From positions 1 through 64,000 of the forward strand of contig JAUWAU010000016.1 in NCBI GenBank assembly GCA_030601885.1: a stretch of DNA of 64,000 nucleotides, written 5' to 3'. How positions within the stretch are numbered: the first letter of the stretch is position 1; each line of letters starts with the position of its first letter. The position numbers and the translations under genes are program-made. The notes beneath the pieces were generated by a model. That model was not told where the DNA came from. It saw nothing but the letters and a program-made list of their open reading frames with translations, and did no database searches. The stretch comes from Armatimonadota bacterium (GTDB taxonomy: Bacteria > Armatimonadota > Zipacnadia > JAUWAU01). This document shows positions 40,646-52,156 of the stretch, piece by piece.

Positions 40646-42490
40646 CTACTGGCCGTCGTTAGCCTCTATCTCGTGATCGTAGAACTCCATGAAACACTCC
40701 CGCAGCCCGTGCTCCCCGTGTATCTCCCGCCGCACAGGCAGGCGGACGCCAGCCTCGGGAAACCACTTGTACTCCGTCACGGTCTCGCAGCCGATGCAAT
40801 AGAGCGGCCTCGGCCACGCCGGAAGTTGCCGCCGCGCCTCGTGGCGCCGCCGCACGGCGCCCGGGGACAGCACTTCCGTCGCGCGTAAGGCCACGGCAGA
40901 GCCGCCTGGCAGCGCCTCGAAGTCTTCGTACACGGTCTCCCAGAGGACGGCCCCCTCCGGGTCATAGGCCACCGCCCGGAGCACGGCCCGCCGCTCTGGG
41001 TCGAACCAGTAGCGCAGGCTGGCGATGTCGCTCAGGTCGTAGAGGGTCGCCGGCTGCTTCAAGCGCGCCTCGAAGATCTCGGTCTCACCGCCCGCGGCAC
41101 CCTCCTCCACCGCACGCCATTCGAACCGCCCCGGATCGGCCATCTGGGCAATGGCGAGAAGCTCCGCTCGCGGCTTGGCCGCCTCCCAGGGAGACACCAG
41201 GAGCTTCCGCACGGTGGTCGGCCCACGTGCATCCTCGGCGCTGACCGCCCCCACGAGGTCGCCTGCCGTCGAGGAGACGCGAGCCCTATCGGGGCCAACC
41301 TCGTACAGCGTCGTCGCACCCACGAGTCGATCATCCTCCGGGGCCATCGGGTCAGGCGCCCCCCTGATCTCGAGGCGGAGCAATGGCGGCGTGATGATGT
41401 ACTGGGCCTCGAAGTGATGGATTCCCGGCGTGCGCTTTGGCACGGGCGCGAGCAACTCAATGTAGGCTGAGTAGCGCACGGTGCGGACCGGCCGCACAGC
41501 GCCGCGCAGGCGCCGGACGATGCCGGCCTGCTCGGCGGGCAAATCAGTCAGAGTCAGGGCAGGACAGCCGGCGATGGGATCGGGATGGAGTCCGGCCGCG
41601 ACTACACGGCGCGCCATCGGGCTGATGCGCCCCGCGATGTCCCTGGCCGCTCGGAGGGCCCGTGATGCTTCAACTGCGCGGCCGCGCGCCTCCTGAAAGT
41701 CCCCAGTGTCGGGCATGTGCCGCCACGACCAGTACTTGTGCGAGACCACGTGCAGGGCGTGCTGGGCGATGGGACGCGTGATGAACTCGACCCTCCGCTG
41801 GCGGAACTCCGGCGGCTCCTCTGAACCGCCCGGCGGGTGCGGAAACTCCGCCGTGACCCGCGCAAACATCGGCGCCTTTTCGTCGATGGCCTCGCGGATG
41901 TCGGCACGGGCAGCCTCCATCTGCTCGTCGGTCATGGGTCTGCGCGCGAAGCGGTATTTGGGCTGGTCGATGTAGTCTGCGTATAGCGCCGAGGCTTGCT
42001 CCGCCGCTGATTGGGCCGCTTGCGGGCTCGCCTCCAGACGTTCCACAAGCTGCTCGGCGATGTACGACGACAGTTGCGACACCTGGGCCTTGAGGCGCGC
42101 CACGTCTGCCGGGTCGGCTAGGGGGGTAGCGATGATGTCGCCGACGATGAAGTCATACACCATGGCCGCGAAGGGCAGCCAGGAGCGCGTTAGCGCCTTT
42201 CGGCTGGTGTCGGCGCACTTCGTAATCGCCTTCCGAAGGTCGGCCACATGGGGCTCACTGAGTGGCCCTCGTGCGTGCTTCAACACTGCCGTCTCGAAGG
42301 CTTGGGCCCACAGCTCCCGGTCCGCCGCCGCCCATTGGGGGCGGACCCGCCCTATCCGCTGCACCGCGAACCCCTTGATCGCGGCAGCCTGCTGCCGCAG
42401 CTCCGGTGGCGCACCGGCCGGCGCCGCAGCTCCGAGTGACAGTGCGATCACCACAAGTACGGCAGAACATGCTACAACACACCTGCTCAT
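40646..42490 (-). CDS. Secreted protein of unknown function, 614 residues
   Basis: I do not recognise this protein. Residues 1-27 are a signal peptide (VACSAVLVVIALSLGAAAPA). The mature part begins GAPPELRQQAAAIKGFAVQR. The first ~330 residues are mostly helical and Ala/Arg-rich (ARLKAQVSQLSSYIAEQLVE); the last ~280 look beta-rich (TVRYSAYIELLAPVPKRTPG, YDLSDIASLRYWFDPERRAV) and recall outer-membrane-lipoprotein-carrier-like sheets only vaguely. It has two Cys close together (LYCIGCETVTEYKWFPEAG). AAGGAGG precedes the ATG. Its 5' UTR and signal peptide closely resemble those of the next secreted gene (43420). Confidence 0.6.
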   Translation of the reverse strand: MSRCVVACSAVLVVIALSLGAAAPAGAPPELRQQAAAIKGFAVQRIGRVRPQWAAADRELWAQAFETAVLKHARGPLSEPHVADLRKAITKCADTSRKALTRSWLPFAAMVYDFIVGDIIATPLADPADVARLKAQVSQLSSYIAEQLVERLEASPQAAQSAAEQASALYADYIDQPKYRFARRPMTDEQMEAARADIREAIDEKAPMFARVTAEFPHPPGGSEEPPEFRQRRVEFITRPIAQHALHVVSHKYWSWRHMPDTGDFQEARGRAVEASRALRAARDIAGRISPMARRVVAAGLHPDPIAGCPALTLTDLPAEQAGIVRRLRGAVRPVRTVRYSAYIELLAPVPKRTPGIHHFEAQYIITPPLLRLEIRGAPDPMAPEDDRLVGATTLYEVGPDRARVSSTAGDLVGAVSAEDARGPTTVRKLLVSPWEAAKPRAELLAIAQMADPGRFEWRAVEEGAAGGETEIFEARLKQPATLYDLSDIASLRYWFDPERRAVLRAVAYDPEGAVLWETVYEDFEALPGGSAVALRATEVLSPGAVRRRHEARRQLPAWPRPLYCIGCETVTEYKWFPEAGVRLPVRREIHGEHGLRECFMEFYDHEIEANDGQ

Positions 42491-42695
42491 CTCGGTCTGC
42501 CTCCTTGAACCACCTGAATCCCCCCGCGCGCGAGCCCGGACACTCGCGGGTCGTGGGTTGCGGCCCCTGCCATGCCGCAGGGCCTCTGCCCAACGAGGCG
42601 CCGCGCGTTGAAGCCACTACGAGACGTCAACCGCTGCACCGCGAACCCCTTGATCGCGGCAGCCTGCTGCCGCAGCTCCGGTGGCGCACCGGCCG
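42356..42695. repeat. Exact 65-bp direct repeat (42356-42420 and 42631-42695)
   Basis: Both copies begin CCGCTGCACCGCGAACCCC and end GGCGCACCGGCCG. The first encodes residues just after the signal peptide of the 614-residue protein. The second lies in the upstream spacer and encodes the same peptide (GAPPELRQQAAAIKGFAVQR) after a different signal-like stretch, as a broken duplicate. Confidence 0.8.
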
Positions 42696-42786
42696 CGACT
42701 GCGGGTGCCACTGCAAGAACGACAGCGAGGGCAGCGCTTGTGGCTCCCGGTGGCCGCCTCCTAGTCCCCCTTCGTAACCTCAACAT
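42487..42786 (-). pseudogene. Truncated duplicate of the 614-residue secreted protein's N-terminus
   Basis: The open frame encodes a signal-like segment (ALAVVLAVAPAVAA) followed by GAPPELRQQAAAIKGFAVQR, identical to the mature start of the adjacent 614-residue protein. It then runs into the non-coding leader repeat. No SD or conserved continuation is seen, so it is a partial duplicate rather than a gene. Confidence 0.55.
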
Positions 42787-43420
42787 CGAACTTGGTCACC
42801 GTGGTGTTGTGAAATGCCCCCGCGGTCCCGGGCTGGGGGTACTCTGGGCCGATAACCTCGCACTCGATGAGACAAAGGAGCAAGGCCTCCTGCTCATCGC
42901 TGAGGTCTAGGCTGTGGCTTGTCGCCGTCCAGTGGGCCTCCAAAACGAAGGTGAGCTGCTGCCCGGTTGTGTGGCTGCACTGCGTCCCCTCGGAGGTAAT
43001 GTCGTCGGGAAGCTCTGCTTCCCAGACGCCCCCGGCCGATGCGTCGGCAGGGTCCGCGTTCCACCGGTAGAACCCCCTTGTGCCCTCGGCATCGATTGTG
43101 CCGTCACCGGGCTCGTCCTCTGGGTCGCAACTCAGGCTCCTGCTGCCCGTGACTGCCCTCAGCGCCGTGCCTTCGTGCTCCTCATGCTCCGGGTCATCGC
43201 AGTGCAGAGCAGTGATGAGAACCTTCGCCCACGCGCTGGATCCGCTGCCCCCGTCGCTGATTTGCACGCATGGACAATTCTCGTTCTCCCCGTAGGTATC
43301 GCCTATATTGGTATACTCCGCAGGGCCCACAATCCAAGTCGCTCCAGCGGGCGCCGTAGCCCAGAGTGACAGCGCCATCACCACAAGTACGCCACAACAT
43401 GCTGCAACACACCTGCTCAT
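42761..43420 (-). CDS. Secreted Cys-containing protein of unknown function, 219 residues
   Basis: I do not recognise this protein. The signal peptide (VAACCGVLVVMALSLWATAP) is nearly the same as that of the 614-residue protein, but the mature chain is unrelated: beta-rich, acidic, with several Cys (YGENENCPCVQISDGGSGSS; LCLIECEVIGPEYPQPG). It is probably exported and disulfide-bonded or adhesive; this is a guess from composition. GAGGGAG precedes the ATG at 43420. The region 43552-43861 upstream holds only a candidate promoter with a poly-G tract. Confidence 0.6.
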   Translation of the reverse strand: MSRCVAACCGVLVVMALSLWATAPAGATWIVGPAEYTNIGDTYGENENCPCVQISDGGSGSSAWAKVLITALHCDDPEHEEHEGTALRAVTGSRSLSCDPEDEPGDGTIDAEGTRGFYRWNADPADASAGGVWEAELPDDITSEGTQCSHTTGQQLTFVLEAHWTATSHSLDLSDEQEALLLCLIECEVIGPEYPQPGTAGAFHNTTVTKFDVEVTKGD

Positions 43421-43743
43421 CTCGGTCTCCCTCCTTGAACCACCTGAATCCCCCCGCTGAATCCCCCCGCGCGCGAGCCCAGACACTCGCGGGTCGTGGG
43501 TTGCCGCCCCTGCGATGGTGCACGGCTTGTGCTCAACGAGGCGCCGCGCGGCCCGAGGACCAAGGCACACGCAGTCGCTGCGCGTTGAATCCGGGACAGG
43601 ACGTCAACCCATTCCCTGAGAGAAGCAATGAGGGGTAACTGCTGGGGACCTACTCAAGGCCGAACCGCTAACTGCCTCCCCTTGCCACTCTCCCTCGGAC
43701 GAAACGGGCAAACCAGATACCGACAACCCATTTCAGGCAGCAG

Positions 43744-43861: not shown

Positions 43862-44611
43862 TCACGCCCCCGCCGCCCGGGCCAGCTCAGCCTGCTTATC
43901 GGGGGACTGATAGCGGTCCGGGTGCGCGAGGTAGTCCTTGATCGTCTCGCGCTCCAGCGAGGCCATGGCGTCCGCGAGCCAATCGAGCGCTTTCGACGCA
44001 AAGGGCACGAGCGAGTGTAGACGTATTCCGTGCTCATTCGCAGTTTCGGCGGCGCCCTGCTCGCGATCGAGCACGACGGCGACGTCCTGACATACGACAT
44101 CCTCGAGGCCGTGCCGCGCCAACTCGTGCTCCACCTGTCGGACGGCGATGAGCTTGCTGTCGAAGCCGGTCACGAGATCGTCCAGGACCACCAGCCGGTC
44201 GCCGGCGGCCAGCTCGCCCTCGACCATGGCATGCTCGCCGTAGCGCCGGATCGCCTCGGTCAGCTCGTCGGCGCTGCGAACGCCCTCGAGTTTGCGGGTG
44301 TACAGGCAGGGGATGCCGGAGGCGAGAGACGCCGCCACGGCAAGCGGTATCCCGGCCATCGCCACGCCGACGATCTTCGTCACGTCGGGCGCCTCTTCGT
44401 GGATGAGCCGCCCGAGGGCCTCCCCCACCTCGCGCAGCAACTCCGGGTGAGAGCAGACGGGGCGGAGCTGGATGTAGAAGGGACTCCAGGCGCCGCTTAC
44501 GAGCGTCCAGCCCTCCGGTTTGTCCCGGTACCAGGTCCTGATGAGGCCGCGCTGGTAGAGCGCCTCGACGATGCGCTTGCCGATGGCGTCCTTCTCTTCA
44601 GGCCAAGCCAT
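43862..44611 (-). CDS. Orotate phosphoribosyltransferase-like protein
   Basis: A 249-residue type I PRTase resembling OPRTase/OMP-decarboxylase-linked PyrE. The PRPP-binding motif is RLVVLDDLVTGFDSKLIAVR; the canonical second Thr (DDxxTTG) is replaced so that the loop reads DDLVTGFDS. GAWSPFYIQLRPVCSHPELL matches the substrate hood region (canonical S.F.ID.R). IVGVAMAGIPLAVAASLASG is the pyrophosphate-loop region. Pyrimidine synthesis is likely but not certain. GAGGTGAC precedes the ATG. No other pyr biosynthesis gene is adjacent. Confidence 0.75.
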   Translation of the reverse strand: MAWPEEKDAIGKRIVEALYQRGLIRTWYRDKPEGWTLVSGAWSPFYIQLRPVCSHPELLREVGEALGRLIHEEAPDVTKIVGVAMAGIPLAVAASLASGIPCLYTRKLEGVRSADELTEAIRRYGEHAMVEGELAAGDRLVVLDDLVTGFDSKLIAVRQVEHELARHGLEDVVCQDVAVVLDREQGAAETANEHGIRLHSLVPFASKALDWLADAMASLERETIKDYLAHPDRYQSPDKQAELARAAGA

Positions 44612-44655
44612 TTGTCACCTCTGCGCTGCACGAGCCAGCGGGTGCGGCCGAAGGG

Positions 44656-45129
44656 TTACGCAGCCTCTGAGGGGTGCTCAGTCGGGGGCCCGGCGGTGCG
44701 CACCGACCAGACGAGGGTGACTGCCTCGACGACGGCGGCCGCCAGCGAAGCCACAACGAGCAGCCGAAGCCCCCACCAGAGCCCCGCGGGGGGAACCGCC
44801 CACAGCACGGCTGTCGGCACGCACATCATCGCCATGGAGCCGGCCGTCACCAGCCACCGCTGTCGCTCCGTTGCGTCCGGTACCGACACTTCGATAATGG
44901 GCCCCCAGATCAGGCCCGCCGCCGCTCCGCACCACGCCCCGAACACCCATGAGGCGACGATATCCGGCAGGGGCCCCGTGTCACCGTACACCCTCAGGTC
45001 CACCAGCCAGAGCGCGGTGCCCAGCGCCGCGCTGACGGCAACGCGCACGGTCACCCGAAGAAGGGCCATCAGCCCCGGCTGGTGCTCCGGCGCTTCTTCC
45101 TTGCAGCTATCAGTCTGTACATCCACCAT
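44656..45129 (-). CDS. Small integral membrane protein, unknown
   Basis: A 157-residue protein with about four TM helices (VAVSAALGTALWLV; IVASWVFGAWCGAAAGLIWG; LVTAGSMAMMCVPTAVLWAV; LLVVASLAAAVVEAVTLVW). I do not recognise the family. The ATG at 45129 has AGGA upstream; a GTG one codon earlier is possible. It lies between the FGGY-like and PRTase genes on the same strand. Confidence 0.6.
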   Translation of the reverse strand: MVDVQTDSCKEEAPEHQPGLMALLRVTVRVAVSAALGTALWLVDLRVYGDTGPLPDIVASWVFGAWCGAAAGLIWGPIIEVSVPDATERQRWLVTAGSMAMMCVPTAVLWAVPPAGLWWGLRLLVVASLAAAVVEAVTLVWSVRTAGPPTEHPSEAA

Positions 45130-45195
45130 CACGGCAATCCTTGTTTGCTGGTCTCACGCCTCAGTTCCCTGCCGTGGGCCCATCTTCCTTCCGGC

Positions 45196-45246
45196 CTCAG
45201 GCTTTTCCAGCCCACCTCCAGGCCCAAAAAGCTCGAGCAAAACCAC
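45196..45246 (+). repeat. Second copy of the tRNA-Ala-flanking 51-nt element
   Basis: CTCAGGCTTTTCCAGCCC then a segment ending AAAAAGCTCGAGCAAAACC aligns with the minus-strand sequence just 3' of tRNA-Ala (40399-40447). The orientation is inverted relative to that copy. It lies between the FGGY-like gene and the membrane-protein gene. Confidence 0.5.
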
Positions 45247-45258
45247 CACGCCACTGAC

Positions 45259-46776
45259 TCAGGCGTCGCCGCATGCCGGAGGCGGGGGCGCTCCCTGCGC
45301 GGCCATTAAGCCGCCTTGCCAGGCGGTCCGGCGCTTGGTCCGCTCGCCGTGGGGCATCTGCGGCTCGAAGCGCCGTTCGACCTGCAGCAGACTTGCCGTC
45401 TCCTCAGCATCAAGCCAAAAGCCGGCGGCCAGCCCGGCGATGAAAGCGGCGCCCATGAGGTGCGTCTCCGGATTGGCCGGGCGTTCGACGACCACGTCCA
45501 CTATGTCGGCCAGAAACTGCAACAAGAAGTCATTCGCCGCTCCGGGGCCGTCCGCGCGTAGGGTCTGCAATCCCAGCCCCGCGGCGCCGCCCATTGCCTG
45601 GAGTGCATCAGCGGCCTGGTGGGCAATGGATTCGAGCGTCGCCCGAACGACGTGTGCCTTCGTCGTCTGCGCGCTCAGTCCGAGGATGGCCCAACGCGGA
45701 TCGGGCTCGCGCTGCGCCGCTGCGTGCCGGTCCCCGGCAGGCACCACCTGCACGCCACCGGTATCGCCGACCTGCTGGGGCAGCGCCGCGGCCTCCTCTC
45801 CGCTGCCGACCAGCCCCAGGCCACCGTGCAGCCATTCAATGACCGCCGCGCCCATCGGAAGCGCTGCCTCCAGTGCGTGAAGCGGCTCGCCCCCAGGCCC
45901 GCACACCGTCGTGGCCATAGTCTCCGGCGGCGGCTCAGCGGCTTCTTCGCCAGTGTTGATCACGGGCACGCAGGCGTCCGCCAGTCTTATCTTTGCCGTC
46001 CCCCGACGGTGGCAGCCTTGCGCAAAGAGCGTGGCCGGCTCATCGCCGACGATGCCGCCTATGAGCAGCCCTGCGGGAGTGCGCTTCGCCCCCGACGTCT
46101 CGGCGTAGGCGGCCGACGACGTGCGGACGGTGGGAAGCATCGCCGCCGGAATGCGGAAATCCGCCAGTAGCTCCTCGTCCCACGTACGAGTGTGAATGTT
46201 GTACAGGAGAGTATGGGAGGCGTTGGTATGGTCGATGACGTGGGCGCGACCGCCTGTGAGCCGCCAGGCAAGCCAGGAATCGGCGGTGCCAAAGAGGACG
46301 TCGCCGCCCTCGGCGCGCTCGCGCGCTCCTTCGACGTCGTCCAATGCCCACATTGTCTTCGTCGCCGAGAAGCGGGGCGACAGCGTCAGCCCCGTCTTCT
46401 GCCGCACCGTCATCGCCATGTCCGTTGCCGCAAGCCGCTGGCACAGGGACGCCGTGCGAAGGCAGTGGGTGGCGATAGCGTTGCAGATCGGCTCGCCGGT
46501 CTGTGCGTCCCAAAGCACCGCGGAACCGCGCTGGGCGGCAATGCCAATGGCGGCGATGTGGCTCATATCCACGGTGACGCTGGTGATGAGATCGGGGAGC
46601 GTGCTCTCCACCTGGGCCCAGATCTCGTTTGGGTCGTATTCGAGCCAGCCCGGCCGGGGACGTGCCTGTCGCAGCTCTCGCTGGGCCTCCGCGACGATGC
46701 GGCCGGCGCGGTCGATCACGGCCATGCGCGTTAGGGCGTCAGTCAGATGAATGGCGATCACAAAACGCTGTGGCAT
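45259..46776 (-). CDS. GlpK-derived FGGY-family protein, probably not a glycerol kinase
   Basis: A 505-residue protein that aligns along its length with glycerol kinase (RPGWLEYDPNEIWAQVESTL; WRLTGGRAHVIDHTNASHTL). From my memory of E. coli GlpK, residue numbers coincide, so key sites can be compared. Asp10 of the ADP-phosphate loop is His10 (AIHLTDALT instead of ALDQGTTSS). Glu84, Trp103 and Tyr135 of the glycerol site are Gly84, Thr103 and Arg135. Thr267 (GTG) is Asp267 (ADA). Arg83 and catalytic Asp245 remain. It is likely a pseudokinase or has a new substrate. The frame is intact, so it is under selection. The start at 46776 lacks a clear SD. Confidence 0.75.
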   Translation of the reverse strand: MPQRFVIAIHLTDALTRMAVIDRAGRIVAEAQRELRQARPRPGWLEYDPNEIWAQVESTLPDLITSVTVDMSHIAAIGIAAQRGSAVLWDAQTGEPICNAIATHCLRTASLCQRLAATDMAMTVRQKTGLTLSPRFSATKTMWALDDVEGARERAEGGDVLFGTADSWLAWRLTGGRAHVIDHTNASHTLLYNIHTRTWDEELLADFRIPAAMLPTVRTSSAAYAETSGAKRTPAGLLIGGIVGDEPATLFAQGCHRRGTAKIRLADACVPVINTGEEAAEPPPETMATTVCGPGGEPLHALEAALPMGAAVIEWLHGGLGLVGSGEEAAALPQQVGDTGGVQVVPAGDRHAAAQREPDPRWAILGLSAQTTKAHVVRATLESIAHQAADALQAMGGAAGLGLQTLRADGPGAANDFLLQFLADIVDVVVERPANPETHLMGAAFIAGLAAGFWLDAEETASLLQVERRFEPQMPHGERTKRRTAWQGGLMAAQGAPPPPACGDA

Positions 46777-46851
46777 GGCGAACGCCCGGCGCCGGGGGCA
46801 GGAGAACACGGGAAGCGATGGCGTGTGGGCTGGGGAAGCGCGGCGGTTGTT

Positions 46852-46892
46852 GCCGTCTTCTCCTTCTCCCTTTTTCCCTTCTCCCTGCCTCA
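46852..46892 (-). repeat. 3'-end repeat family 2 (purine-rich), copy at Crp/Fnr gene
   Basis: On the minus strand it starts with the stop codon and reads TGAGGCAGGGAGAAGGG, then AAAAAGGGAGAAGGAGAAG. It matches the repeat at lemA (29033-29073). Confidence 0.6.
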
Positions 46893-47573
46893 GAGCGTCT
46901 TCTTCTGCAGGCGCGGGATATTCGTAAGCATGACCCTCTTGCGACCCAGCTTGATGAACGCAAGCCGCTCGAAGAGCTTGAGCACGCGTGTGAGGGTCTC
47001 GCGCGAGGTGCTGACGAGGTTGGCCAGCTCCTGCCGGGTGTGATGCAGCGGCACGAGGATTCCGACCTCCGTCTCCTCTCCCTCCCGCTCGGCCATCTCC
47101 AGCAGCATTCGCGCCACTCTGCCCTGCACATCGAGAAAGGCCAGGTCCTCGATCTGCTGGTCCGCGCGTCGGAGGCGCTGGCTCATGATGGCGAGAAGAT
47201 TCAGGGCCACCTGCGGGTTCTCGCCAAGCTTCGTGAGGAAGTGCTCGCGGGCGCCTACCAGGGCGATGGTGTCAGTGGTAGCCGTCGCGGCCGCCGACCG
47301 TGGTTCGCCGTCGAGGATGGCCATCTCACCGAAGAAATCGCCTGGCTTGAGGTACGTGAGCGTCACCTCGCGCTCCGTTTCATCAGAGCGCAGGCTGATC
47401 TTCACTTTGCCGCTTTTGATGAGGAAAAAATGGGCGCTGGTGTCCTTGGCGTGCAGGATCACGTTCCCGGCATGAAAGAAGCGCTCCTCGAGACCCTCCA
47501 CCAGGGCTTGCTTGTCGCGCTCGGAGAGATCAGCGAGAAGGGCCACGTCCTTCAGGAAGTTCTGTTCGGTCAT
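46890..47573 (-). CDS. Crp/Fnr-family transcriptional regulator
   Basis: A 227-residue regulator. The N-terminal cyclic-nucleotide-binding-type beta-barrel (~10-125) has SAHFFLIKSGKVKISLRSD and YLKPGDFFGEMAILDGEPRS; the retained FGEMAxLxxxxRSA phosphate cassette suggests cAMP or a similar nucleotide. The C-terminal winged HTH has HHTRQELANLVSTSRETLTR. No Cys cluster is present, so it is not an FNR-type oxygen sensor. The ATG at 47573 has GGAGTGGG upstream. A consensus-like promoter lies at 47632-47660. It is divergent from the cupin gene and upstream of the FGGY-like gene, which may be its target. Confidence 0.9.
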   Translation of the reverse strand: MTEQNFLKDVALLADLSERDKQALVEGLEERFFHAGNVILHAKDTSAHFFLIKSGKVKISLRSDETEREVTLTYLKPGDFFGEMAILDGEPRSAAATATTDTIALVGAREHFLTKLGENPQVALNLLAIMSQRLRRADQQIEDLAFLDVQGRVARMLLEMAEREGEETEVGILVPLHHTRQELANLVSTSRETLTRVLKLFERLAFIKLGRKRVMLTNIPRLQKKTL

Positions 47574-47631: not shown

Positions 47632-47660
47632 ATTATAGGATATGGTGTCCGTGGCGTCAA
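47632..47660 (-). promoter_or_regulatory. Promoter of the Crp/Fnr gene
   Basis: On the minus strand TTGACG, a 17-bp spacer, TATAAT. It lies about 60 bp upstream of the ATG. Confidence 0.7.
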
Positions 47661-47677
47661 CGCAGCCGCACGACGCC

Positions 47678-47706
47678 TTGACAGCCGGCCTCTGATCTTA
47701 TAGCAT
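47678..47706 (+). promoter_or_regulatory. Promoter of the cupin gene
   Basis: TTGACA (47678-47683), a 17-bp spacer, TAGCAT (47701-47706). It is divergent from, and only 17 bp away from, the Crp/Fnr promoter, so one regulator could affect both. Confidence 0.6.
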
Positions 47707-47769
47707 TGCCGCCAATTGCACCCGTGCGCTATTGTCTTTGGACAACTCAGCGGCACAGGAGGCTCCGTA

Positions 47770-48471: not shown

Positions 48472-49785
48472 CTATCGGACCAGGCGCGCCGCCCGGCCAC
48501 TGGCCTCGCGGATGATCTCCTCCTCGTTCAACGTCGTCAGTTTCCCATCCAGCATCAGCAGCTCGCCGTGCACTATGGTGGCCGTGACGTCGCTTGCGCG
48601 GGCAGCATATACGATGTGCGACACCGCATTGTGGCGGGGCGATAGATGGGGCTGCTTGAGGTCGATGACAATGACGTCCGCCCTCTTCCCCACCTCGATG
48701 CTCCCTACCTGATCGAAGATCTCCAGCGCTCTCGCGCTTTCGCGGGTGGCCATGGCGAGCGCCTCATAGGCGGAGATCACCGTCGGGTCCCCGGTGTTGA
48801 CCTTGTGCAGCAGTGCCGCGAGACGGGCCTCTTCGAGCATGTCGAGGTTGTTGTTGGAGGCCGCGCCGTCGGTGCCGATGCCCACGATCACTCCCCGGCT
48901 CCGCATCTCCGGCACCGGCGCAATTCCGGAACCCAGCTTCATGTTGCTCCCCGGATTGTGAGCGACACCGACGCCGTATTCCGCCAGCACATCGATGTCC
49001 GAATCGGTCGGGTGCACGCAGTGTGGAGCGATGACGTGCACGTCGAATAGCCCGAGGTCGCGGACGCGCTCCACCGGCGTCTTTCCATGCTCGCGTAGGC
49101 TATCTTCAACCTCTTGCTTGGTCTCGGACAGGTGTATGTGGATACCCACGCCGAGCTCCTGCGCCTGCGCCCGCACTCTCTTGAGCATGGCATCGGGGCA
49201 CGTGTACGGCGCATGCGGCCCGAACATCGGCACAACCCGCTCGTGGCCGTCCTCCTGGCACCGCCGTACGAAGTCGATGGCCTGGGCCAGATGCTCCTCC
49301 GCCTGCGGGTGGACGCCGATAAGCACACCGGACGGACAGGCCCGGATGCCGCTCTCGATGACGGCCCGCAGCGTCTCGTCGAAGGCCCAGTACATGTCGT
49401 TGAAGCACGTTGTCCCCGAGCGGATCATCTCCGCGATGCCGAGCATCGCGCCCCAGTACACGTCAGCCTTTTCCAGCCGCTCCTCCGTGGGCCAGATCTT
49501 CTGCTCCAGCCATTCCTGCACCCGCATATCGTCGGCGAACCCGCGCATGAGCGTCATCGCCAGATGGGTGTGTGCGTTCACAAAGCCCGGCAGCACCACA
49601 CACCCCTCGCCGTCTATCGTCGTCTCGGCCTCCGGCGCCTGGTCCGCCCCGCCCACATAGACGATCTCACTGCCGGCAATGCCGATGTCCCCCACATCGA
49701 TGATTCGCTCGTCCGGATCGAAGGTAATGATGGTGGCGTTCTTGATGGCAATACTGCCCAAACTCACTTCACCTCTAATCGCCAT
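48472..49785 (-). CDS. mtaD: MTA/SAH deaminase (amidohydrolase)
   Basis: A 437-residue metal-dependent amidohydrolase of the 5'-methylthioadenosine/S-adenosylhomocysteine deaminase type. It converts MTA to methylthioinosine and SAH to S-inosylhomocysteine. The metal motif HTH is at 72-74 (FVNAHTHLAMTLMRGFADD), with further His in GIHIHLSETKQEVEDS and APHCVHPTDSD and Asp in VGIGTDGAASNNNLDML. It is followed in transcription order by nothing close; mtnA and mtnP lie just upstream on the same strand, so the three form a salvage block. Confidence 0.9.
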   Translation of the reverse strand: MAIRGEVSLGSIAIKNATIITFDPDERIIDVGDIGIAGSEIVYVGGADQAPEAETTIDGEGCVVLPGFVNAHTHLAMTLMRGFADDMRVQEWLEQKIWPTEERLEKADVYWGAMLGIAEMIRSGTTCFNDMYWAFDETLRAVIESGIRACPSGVLIGVHPQAEEHLAQAIDFVRRCQEDGHERVVPMFGPHAPYTCPDAMLKRVRAQAQELGVGIHIHLSETKQEVEDSLREHGKTPVERVRDLGLFDVHVIAPHCVHPTDSDIDVLAEYGVGVAHNPGSNMKLGSGIAPVPEMRSRGVIVGIGTDGAASNNNLDMLEEARLAALLHKVNTGDPTVISAYEALAMATRESARALEIFDQVGSIEVGKRADVIVIDLKQPHLSPRHNAVSHIVYAARASDVTATIVHGELLMLDGKLTTLNEEEIIREASGRAARLVR

Positions 49786-49824
49786 TTGTCATTCTGAGGC
49801 CTACACATCGCTTCTGGCCAGTCA

Positions 49825-50898
49825 CTACTCCCTCAGCGCCGCCAACCCCTCCTCATACGGCGGCCGTGCAACGCCTCTGTCCGTAATGATCGCCGCCACG
49901 AGCCGCGCCGGCGTCACATCGAAGGCGGCGTTATAGATCTCCACGCCGGCGGCCGCCACGCTCTCGTCCGTCTGCAGTCCCAGGTGCGTGACCTCCTCCG
50001 GGCTGCGCTGCTCGATGGGTATCTCGGCGCCGCTGCTCAGCGAGTAGTCCACGGTGGAGATCGGCGCGGCCACGTAGAATGGGATGCCGTGCATGTCGCA
50101 CAGGGCCGCGACGCCGTACGTGCCGATCTTGTTGGCCACATCCCCGTTCGCCGCGATGCGGTCGGCGCCAACGACGGCGCACCCGATCTTTCCCTGCGCC
50201 ATGAGGCTGGCCGCCGTGTTGTCGCAGATCAGCGTCGCCGGTATGCCCTCCTGCGCCATCTCCCAGGCAGTGAGCCGCGCGCCCTGCAGCAGCGGCCGCG
50301 TCTCATCCACCCAGACGTGGATCTTCTTTCCCTGCAGATGCGCCGACCGAATGACGCCGAGCGCCGTCCCGTAGCCGGCAGTGGCCAGCGCGCCGGCGTT
50401 GCAGTGCGTCAGCACATTCGTTCCCTCGGGGATCAGCTCCGCGCCGTGATCTCCCATGGCGACGCAGCGGGCATAGTCGTCCTCGGTGATCTCCTTCGCC
50501 TCAGCCACGACGGCCTGGACCACGTGTGCCACATCACCACTCTCGGCGGCCTTCTGTGCCACTGCCATGACGCGCTCGAGCGCCCAGAAGAGGTTGACGG
50601 CGGTGGGCCGCGTGGCGGCCAGGCACTCCCGCGCCTTTTCCAGCTCAGCGAGCAGCGCGTCAGCGGTGTTTGCCCTGCTGTGATAAGCGCACAGGGCCAT
50701 GCCGAAGGCAGCGGCACAGCCGATGGCAGGGGCGCCGCGTATCTTCAAAGGCCGGATGGCGTCCGCGATGTGCTCGTGGGTGGTGCAGTCCTCGAACACG
50801 AGCGTCTGAGGGAGCTGCGTCTGGTCGATCAGTCGCACCGTCCCGCCCTCGAGCCATTCAATCGTCGCCGGCATCTTCGTATCGCGCTTCTGGTTCAT
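49825..50898 (-). CDS. mtnA: Methylthioribose-1-phosphate isomerase
   Basis: A 357-residue MtnA, converting 5-methylthioribose-1-phosphate to methylthioribulose-1-phosphate. Hallmarks: IRPLKIRGAPAIGCAAAFGM, LTHCNAGALATAGYGTALGV (active-site Cys region), WVDETRPLLQGARLTAWEM and VVGADRIAANGDVANKIGTY (catalytic Asp). The ATG at 50898 has GGAGGA 4 nt upstream; the longer open frame starts inside non-coding repeat sequence. It lies between mtnP and mtaD on one strand. Confidence 0.95.
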   Translation of the reverse strand: MNQKRDTKMPATIEWLEGGTVRLIDQTQLPQTLVFEDCTTHEHIADAIRPLKIRGAPAIGCAAAFGMALCAYHSRANTADALLAELEKARECLAATRPTAVNLFWALERVMAVAQKAAESGDVAHVVQAVVAEAKEITEDDYARCVAMGDHGAELIPEGTNVLTHCNAGALATAGYGTALGVIRSAHLQGKKIHVWVDETRPLLQGARLTAWEMAQEGIPATLICDNTAASLMAQGKIGCAVVGADRIAANGDVANKIGTYGVAALCDMHGIPFYVAAPISTVDYSLSSGAEIPIEQRSPEEVTHLGLQTDESVAAAGVEIYNAAFDVTPARLVAAIITDRGVARPPYEEGLAALRE

Positions 50899-50976
50899 GG
50901 TGTCCTCCGCACCTGGCCGCGGTGGTGTTGCAGCGCCAGCCCTCCGTCCCCCGCCGCCTTTGCCGTTATCCGTTCC

Positions 50977-51008
50977 TAACCACTGACCACTGATCACTAA
51001 CCACTGCC
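50977..51008 (-). repeat. 3'-end repeat family 1, copy overlapping the mtnP stop
   Basis: The minus strand reads GGCAGTGGTTAGTGATC, then AGTGGTCAGTGGTTA. The mtnP stop codon TAG (50997-50999) is inside it, in sense orientation. Confidence 0.6.
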
Positions 51009-51770
51009 GTCCTCCCGACAACCACACTCCACGTCCTCCGCCTCCGCCAGCGCTGCGGCGAGCACCAGACCACGCACCTGCTCCGCCTGCGCCGTCATGC
51101 TCTCGACAATCTCCAGGTGGCTGATGGGGGTCGGCGAGATGCCCGCGGCCAGATTCGTCACCATGCAAATGGCCGCATAGCACATGCCGGCCTCACGCGC
51201 AAGGGCCACCTCCGGATAATTGGTCATACCCACTACATCGGCGCCCCACGTGCGATACATGCGGATCTCAGCCGGCGTCTCGAACCGTGGCCCTTCGGCG
51301 CACAGGTACGTGCCGCCGTCGTGGAGCTGGAGGCTCTGCCCTCGGGCTGCAGAGCGAATCACCCCGCGCAATCGCGGGCAGTATGGCTCCGTCATGTCCA
51401 CATGCTCGACACTGTCGTCGCCCCCATCGAAGAACGTATCCGCTCTGGCTTTCGTGTTATCGATGAACTGGTCGATGAGCACGAGCGCCGGCCGCAGCCA
51501 GTCGTTCCTGAGCGACCCGACGGCATTCGTCGCTATGATGCTCCGGATGCCGAGCTTCTTCAGCGCCTTGATATTGGCCCGAAAGTTAATCCGATGCGGC
51601 GGGATGCTATGCTGCTCGCCATGCCGGGGCATGAAGGCTATCTCTTTGCCCTGCATCCGCCCGACGACGACGTGCGCCCGCCCGTATGGGGTGTCCACGC
51701 CTTGCTGCTGGACATCCTCCAGCCCATTCAGCGCATAGACACCCGTCCCACCAACTATGGCCACATGCAT
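50997..51770 (-). CDS. mtnP: Methylthioadenosine/methylthioinosine phosphorylase (MtnP family)
   Basis: A 257-residue family 2 nucleoside phosphorylase. It has AIVGGTGVYALNGLEDV (phosphate loop), IAFMPRHGEQHSIPPHRINF, IIATNAVGSL and YLCAEGPRFETPAEIRMYR. Where MTA phosphorylases have Asp (TDYD) to bind the 6-amino group, this protein has Asn206 (CMVTNLAAG), as in 6-oxopurine-specific enzymes. With mtaD two genes away, it probably cleaves methylthioinosine to hypoxanthine and methylthioribose-1-phosphate, the MtnA substrate. The ATG at 51770 has GGAGGA 7 nt upstream. The last codons and stop lie in a dispersed repeat. Confidence 0.9.
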   Translation of the reverse strand: MHVAIVGGTGVYALNGLEDVQQQGVDTPYGRAHVVVGRMQGKEIAFMPRHGEQHSIPPHRINFRANIKALKKLGIRSIIATNAVGSLRNDWLRPALVLIDQFIDNTKARADTFFDGGDDSVEHVDMTEPYCPRLRGVIRSAARGQSLQLHDGGTYLCAEGPRFETPAEIRMYRTWGADVVGMTNYPEVALAREAGMCYAAICMVTNLAAGISPTPISHLEIVESMTAQAEQVRGLVLAAALAEAEDVECGCREDGSG

Positions 51771-51931
51771 AGGGGCATCCTCCAACCCGCAACGCGCCGC
51801 AATTCGCGGCCGCGGGACGTCTTTCCTTCCATCCTCCGAGTGCGGCGCCGGCCGTTGACACATGGGAGGTATTTCCCTACAATCACCCGGCCTTTGCTCC
51901 CACGCGCCGTACATTGCGGAGGATGCACCAC

Positions 51932-52156
51932 ATGTCGGCCGGGTCCTGGGAGTCGTTCTTCGAGGTCGGTCAGTGGCCGGCGCAGCTCGCGGCAGCGGAC
52001 GGCGCAACCGTGTTCGTCCCGACGGCGCGAGTCGTCGCCGACGGCATCAAGCATCAGGCTGAAGAGGCGCCGCCCTCCGACGAGCCGGCGTCCCCGCCTC
52101 AACCCGAGCCGGAGGCGCCGGGCGCACCGGAGGAGCGCAAGTCCATCTTCGACTAA
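51932..52156 (+). CDS. Small hypothetical protein with acidic/proline tail
   Basis: A 74-residue protein. A short conserved-looking head (SWESFFEVGQWPAQLAAADG) is followed by a Pro/Glu-rich tail (EPASPPQPEPEAPGAPEER). GGAGGA lies 9 nt upstream of the ATG at 51932. It is divergent from mtnP and 40 bp before the homocysteine methyltransferase gene. I cannot assign a function. Confidence 0.4.
   Translation: MSAGSWESFFEVGQWPAQLAAADGATVFVPTARVVADGIKHQAEEAPPSDEPASPPQPEPEAPGAPEERKSIFD

Follow-up and report, generated by a model that had tools for sequence, protein, structure and literature searches.

The gene described here occupies positions 45259..46776 on the minus strand of a 64,000-nucleotide stretch of an Armatimonadota contig, which is referred to as the window. 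It begins with ATG, ends with TGA and encodes a 505-residue protein orthologous to glycerol kinase (GlpK) in which the ATP and glycerol sites have been rewritten, a candidate pseudo-glycerol-kinase; use of an alternative GTG start at 46809 would give a product of 516 residues. The intact 505-residue frame noted in the preliminary description was borne out, as was its claim of colinearity with E. coli GlpK at matching numbering, since a phmmer search aligned residues 3-492 of the protein with residues 3-492 of E. coli GlpK (1bu6; E 6.6e-130, 42-43% identity) with no gap printed. Because the same residues were covered in both proteins without printed gaps, E. coli numbering is used directly throughout.

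Both FGGY domains were present (PF00370, FGGY_N, 1e-56; PF02782, FGGY_C, 9e-21), and similarity at the level of GlpK was found with NF000756 (E 1.5e-147) and TIGR01311 (E 6.6e-132). These E-values and domain matches excluded chance similarity. The curated equivalog and subfamily cut-offs were missed, with scores of 440.3 against 590.35 for TIGR01311 and 491.9 against 498 for NF000756. The closest solved structures were all glycerol kinases. The similarity is that of an orthologue, and on sequence grounds the gene appears to be the lineage's own GlpK. Its G+C content at the three codon positions (0.72/0.54/0.80) was inside or near the range of intact glpK genes. Antisense open reading frames over the gene had no support as real genes; such frames (for instance 44030-45880, plus strand, 616 aa) also overrun an orotate-phosphoribosyltransferase-like gene and are typical of G+C-rich DNA.

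A gene for a Crp/Fnr-type regulator, with a cNMP-binding domain and a Crp-like HTH, lies 113 bp upstream on the same strand (46890..47573), in agreement with the earlier placement of such a gene just upstream. It is preceded by a sigma-70-like promoter (TTGACG-17-TATAAT, 47632..47660, minus strand) that was recognised by consensus match only, and no promoter-like site was found between the Crp/Fnr gene and the GlpK-like gene; co-transcription of the two genes is therefore plausible. The promoter forms part of a back-to-back pair of promoter-like sites (47632-47706) that match at 11/12 toward the Crp/Fnr gene and at 10/12 toward a cupin gene at 47716. The start region of the GlpK-like gene (46777..46809, minus strand) contains, between the two possible start codons and directly ahead of the ATG, the perfect 12-bp palindrome CCCGGCGCCGGG, which could be a hairpin or an operator. 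No Shine-Dalgarno core was found at ATG 46776, at GTG 46809 or at any other candidate start. Among 53 long open reading frames of the same genome the core was present in 33 and missing in 20, and its absence here is weak evidence that the gene may be poorly translated.

Downstream on the minus strand lie genes for a hydrophobic, probably membrane protein of 158 aa (44656..45132), for which there was no Pfam or NCBIfam match, and for the orotate-phosphoribosyltransferase-like protein (43862..44611), which scored under the curated cut-offs. This neighbourhood was not conserved. The stretches fetched around the Crp orthologues of three class members and around the orotate-phosphoribosyltransferase-like orthologue of one contained no GlpK-like gene. 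In six class members, the canonical glpK locus was likewise without Crp/Fnr, 158-aa or phosphoribosyltransferase-like neighbours. A synteny link of either gene to glpK was rejected, since the orthologues in relatives do not adjoin glpK, and a partnership of the GlpK-like protein with the Crp/Fnr protein is unsupported.

Two further features of the window were recorded. A minus-strand cluster at 48472-52007 holds amidohydrolase-family deaminase-like, IF-2B-family (MtnA-like) and phosphorylase-superfamily (MTAP-like) genes, names that were assigned from general sequence knowledge and would be in keeping with methylthioadenosine salvage. A local duplication of approximately 200 bp (42410-42607 and 43340-43550; 90% identity, 930-943 bp apart), with an extra 92-bp copy nearby (42356-42447 / 42631-42722), spans the signal-peptide-encoding start of the genes at 40646-42490 and 42761-43570.

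Rewritten ATP and glycerol sites

The alignment to E. coli GlpK confirmed each of the substitutions listed in the preliminary description (D10H, E84G, W103T, Y135R and T267D), together with the retention of R83 and D245, and revealed ten more contact replacements: G12T, T13D, T14A, Q246E, G266A, G268A, F270V, G310A, Q314E and G411P. In total, 15 of 19 ligand contacts were changed, leaving R17, R83, D245 and N415; Q82 was likewise retained. The 19 positions, which we take to be those that touch glycerol, the phosphates or the nucleotide in E. coli GlpK, represent established knowledge of GlpK structures and are not computed contacts. The loss of the phosphate loops and of most of the glycerol site, as first proposed, was thus substantiated.

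In the first phosphate loop (codons 10-17, 46726..46749; all positions here are on the minus strand), DQGTTSSR is replaced by HLTDALTR, so that H-L-T-D-A stands in place of D10-x-G12-T13-T14 and R17 is kept. The second phosphate loop lies within codons 245-272 (45961..46044), a segment in which D245 is kept and Q246 has become E; YGTGCF reads LADACV (G266A, T267D, G268A, F270V), with A-D-A in place of G266-T267-G268. The glycerol side is affected at codons 81-85 (46522..46536; NQRET to AQRGS, with R83 kept and E84G), codons 102-106 (46459..46473; VWQCR to ATHCL, with W103T, Q104H and R106L) and codons 133-136 (46369..46380; DPYF to SPRF, with Y135R). The loop at codons 350-356 (45709..45729) has changed from GLGAPYW to RHAAAQR. 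The glycerol specificity positions R83, E84, Y135, D245 and F270 were reported to be identical across divergent GlpK clusters (PMC3245297); the corresponding residues of the GlpK-like protein are R, G, R, D and V, so that two of the five are kept.

Compensated frameshifts were rejected as the source of these changes, as the other frames yielded no GlpK motif at the altered sites. Two or three base changes are needed for eight of the 15 contact replacements; together with the lack of a motif in other frames, this result means that neither a recent lesion nor an error of assembly explains the changes.

If the protein folds as GlpK does, the acidic residues introduced by T13D and T267D would occupy the places where GlpK holds the phosphates of ATP, and the glycerol cage would have lost most of its residues (E84, W103, Y135, Q246 and F270). 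An AlphaFold2 model, built with an alignment of 54 relatives, had a pLDDT of 91.6 and a pTM of 0.90, and matched E. coli GlpK with a TM of 0.93 (Foldseek) and, against 3ezw, a Z of 52.7 over 488 residues at 1.9 A; destabilising changes have little effect on AlphaFold models made from a family alignment, and such models are no test of stability. The single low-confidence stretch inside the modelled fold was residues 350-356, the former GLGAPYW loop. The overall GlpK fold, of the actin-ATPase superfamily, is accordingly predicted by the model to be kept.

Relatives and glycerol metabolism

Apart from the gene itself, 68 GlpK-type matches at E 1e-80 or better were found in 291 genomes of the phylum. 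All of them keep the canonical active-site residues, with at most four of 20 positions differing (some sequences were partial). A scan of a genome collection with the whole protein gave no match; when only the rewritten stretches served as the query, 77 further relatives were obtained, all of which keep the catalytic site, with zero to six of 20 positions differing. It had been asked whether the substitutions define a conserved clade. They do not: none of the 68 phylum and 77 other relatives shares them, and no pseudo-GlpK clade was found in 46 class and 291 phylum genomes, two genome-collection scans and plasmids. The GlpK-like protein is a singleton among the sequences examined and is known from one genome. 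Its terminal branch was the longest in a tree of 107 sequences (2.14 changes per site versus a median of 0.33), and its placement in the tree was set aside because the branch is too long.

The source genome has no member of the MIP/GlpF glycerol facilitator family, which is present in eight of nine class members with an intact strict GlpK (co-occurrence P 2e-4). No other strict GlpK was found in the source assembly, from which an intact copy could be missing since it is 95% complete. The absence of GlpD was discarded as an indication that glycerol use had been lost, given that 45 of 46 class genomes are without that Pfam domain.

The only other GlpK-like gene in the genome is a paralogue (G000:C7:139292-140758) whose product is 33% identical to the protein described here. 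Both are GlpK-like FGGY proteins; the paralogue scores 580 bits to TIGR01311 and keeps the P-loop Asp/Thr, GTG, REW and Y135, all altered in the protein described here, together with D245. Its own changes are Q246S, F270S and Q314A. It lies in an operon-like cluster (G000:C7:133000-147000, locus L031) with genes for an apiosidase-like protein, a split transketolase, two dehydrogenases and an isomerase with a fucose-isomerase C-terminal domain. Because the kinase site is kept and the neighbours are sugar genes, the paralogue probably remains active as a sugar or polyol kinase, and the cluster is likely to encode a pathway for a branched sugar of the apiose type, whose kinase derives from GlpK. 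In the literature searched, no paper was found to support apulose kinase, the activity suspected from the operon.

Decay, selection and other explanations

The distribution of the changes was uneven. Among 132 near-invariant columns, 15 of the 19 contacts were changed compared to 35 of the 113 others (Fisher P 1e-4). When the contacts were restricted to a shorter ligand list, likewise drawn from established knowledge of GlpK structures, the values were 9/13 and 41/119 (P 0.017), and for the ATP-side residues alone 10/12 were changed (P 0.001); for the five glycerol positions alone the enrichment was not significant (P 0.28). The changes were also clustered along the protein, with 45 runs versus 63 expected (runs test, P 0.0005): change was sparse in columns 137-244 (2/20) and 371-410 (0/10) and dense in columns 245-272 (11/16) and 300-370 (18/29). 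In neutral simulations that started from intact class glpK genes and were taken to 31% residue change, the frame was free of stops in 1% (mutational G+C of 0.65) to 6% (0.80) of cases, with indels not counted.

The most probable explanation, which we favour with some reserve, is that catalysis has been lost in this GlpK orthologue while selection still acts on its fold, and that it serves as a binding or scaffold protein. On this view a GlpK orthologue would no longer be able to bind ATP-Mg and glycerol as GlpK does, and selection to fold would persist. The missing facilitator and the lack of another strict GlpK in the genome fit this explanation as well. We infer that the protein does not bind ATP, that the gene is translated and that the fold is under purifying selection. 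A non-catalytic binding or scaffold role would be the most likely outcome; alternatively, a different small ligand may be bound through the pocket formed by the kept R83 and D245. The preliminary description had proposed a non-kinase or sensor role: the loss of the site with the fold kept (15/19 contacts; pLDDT 91.6, Z 52.7) agreed with this proposal, and the sensor role is unsupported, with no positive evidence in its favour.

The main rival, unlikely on balance and still deserving of serious weight, is that the lineage gave up glycerol use and that glpK has been drifting under relaxed constraint, so far free of stops and frameshifts. Such decay would account for a gene known from a single genome, on the longest branch of the tree, in an unconserved neighbourhood and with starts that lack a Shine-Dalgarno core, in a genome without a facilitator or another strict GlpK; 31% of the non-contact near-invariant columns have changed too. 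These 35 columns, like the long terminal branch, the single sequence, the missing Shine-Dalgarno core and the lack of a link between the neighbouring genes and glpK in relatives, count against a maintained pseudoenzyme. In contrast, all 505 codons are intact and free of gaps in the E. coli alignment, an open frame was rare in the simulations even with indels left out, and the coding-position G+C signature is undisturbed. The enrichment of change at contacts, its clustering and the open, gap-free frame argue against uniform decay, which fits the data poorly.

It is improbable that the protein is a re-specialised enzyme whose chemistry differs from that of ATP-dependent polyol kinases. Such an enzyme would combine R17, Q82, R83, D245 and N415, all of them kept, with newly acquired residues, among them H10, D13, E246, D267 and R135. 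The retention of the first five, which include the general base D245, would fit such a role, as would the new charged residues that line the cleft. However, the new residues occur in no relative and so give no sign of constraint, and no pathway operon surrounds the gene. To our knowledge, no FGGY member has a non-kinase catalytic activity.

An artefact of misassembly, sequencing error or a contaminant contig is very improbable: the 6.8-Mb assembly is in 90 contigs with an estimated contamination of 6.2%, but the contig is 131 kb long, the neighbouring genes resemble those of the class (57% and 62%), and whole codons have been replaced, many by two or three base changes, with no frameshifts.

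The dead-but-folded reading can be carried further, to a non-catalytic ligand-binding or scaffold protein that arose from GlpK in one Armatimonadota lineage and possibly acts with the regulator encoded upstream; this version is doubtful, and the partner, the ligand and the Crp/Fnr link are speculative.

Comparison with known glycerol kinases

Within the FGGY family, few enzymes are as uniform as the glycerol kinases. The protein resembles E. coli GlpK (1bu6, 1glf, 3ezw; TIGR01311, NF000756) in its matching numbering, its two FGGY domains and its predicted fold, and differs in having lost both phosphate loops, the adenine-side residues and most of the glycerol contacts; the fructose-1,6-bisphosphate loop of the E. 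coli enzyme (229-237) is not kept either. Automatic annotation as GlpK would mislead here, since the NF000756 match is just below the cut-off, and glycerol use, which may be absent, would be attributed to the genome.

Searches of the literature turned up no relevant case of a GlpK pseudokinase in bacteria. Mammals provide a precedent for dead homologues of glycerol kinase: Gykl1 and GK2 have no detectable glycerol kinase activity and a changed catalytic Asp, and an adaptor role has been proposed for them (PMC5566117). Like the protein described here, Gykl1/GK2 (structure entry 7nie) are GlpK-fold relatives with an altered catalytic Asp. They are vertebrate testis proteins close to the active Gyk, whereas the present protein is bacterial, has no known partner and has a far more thoroughly altered active site. 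A bacterial orthologue altered to this extent would, if the favoured explanation is correct, represent a clear bacterial conversion of an enzyme to a pseudoenzyme, comparable to that of mammalian Gykl1/GK2.
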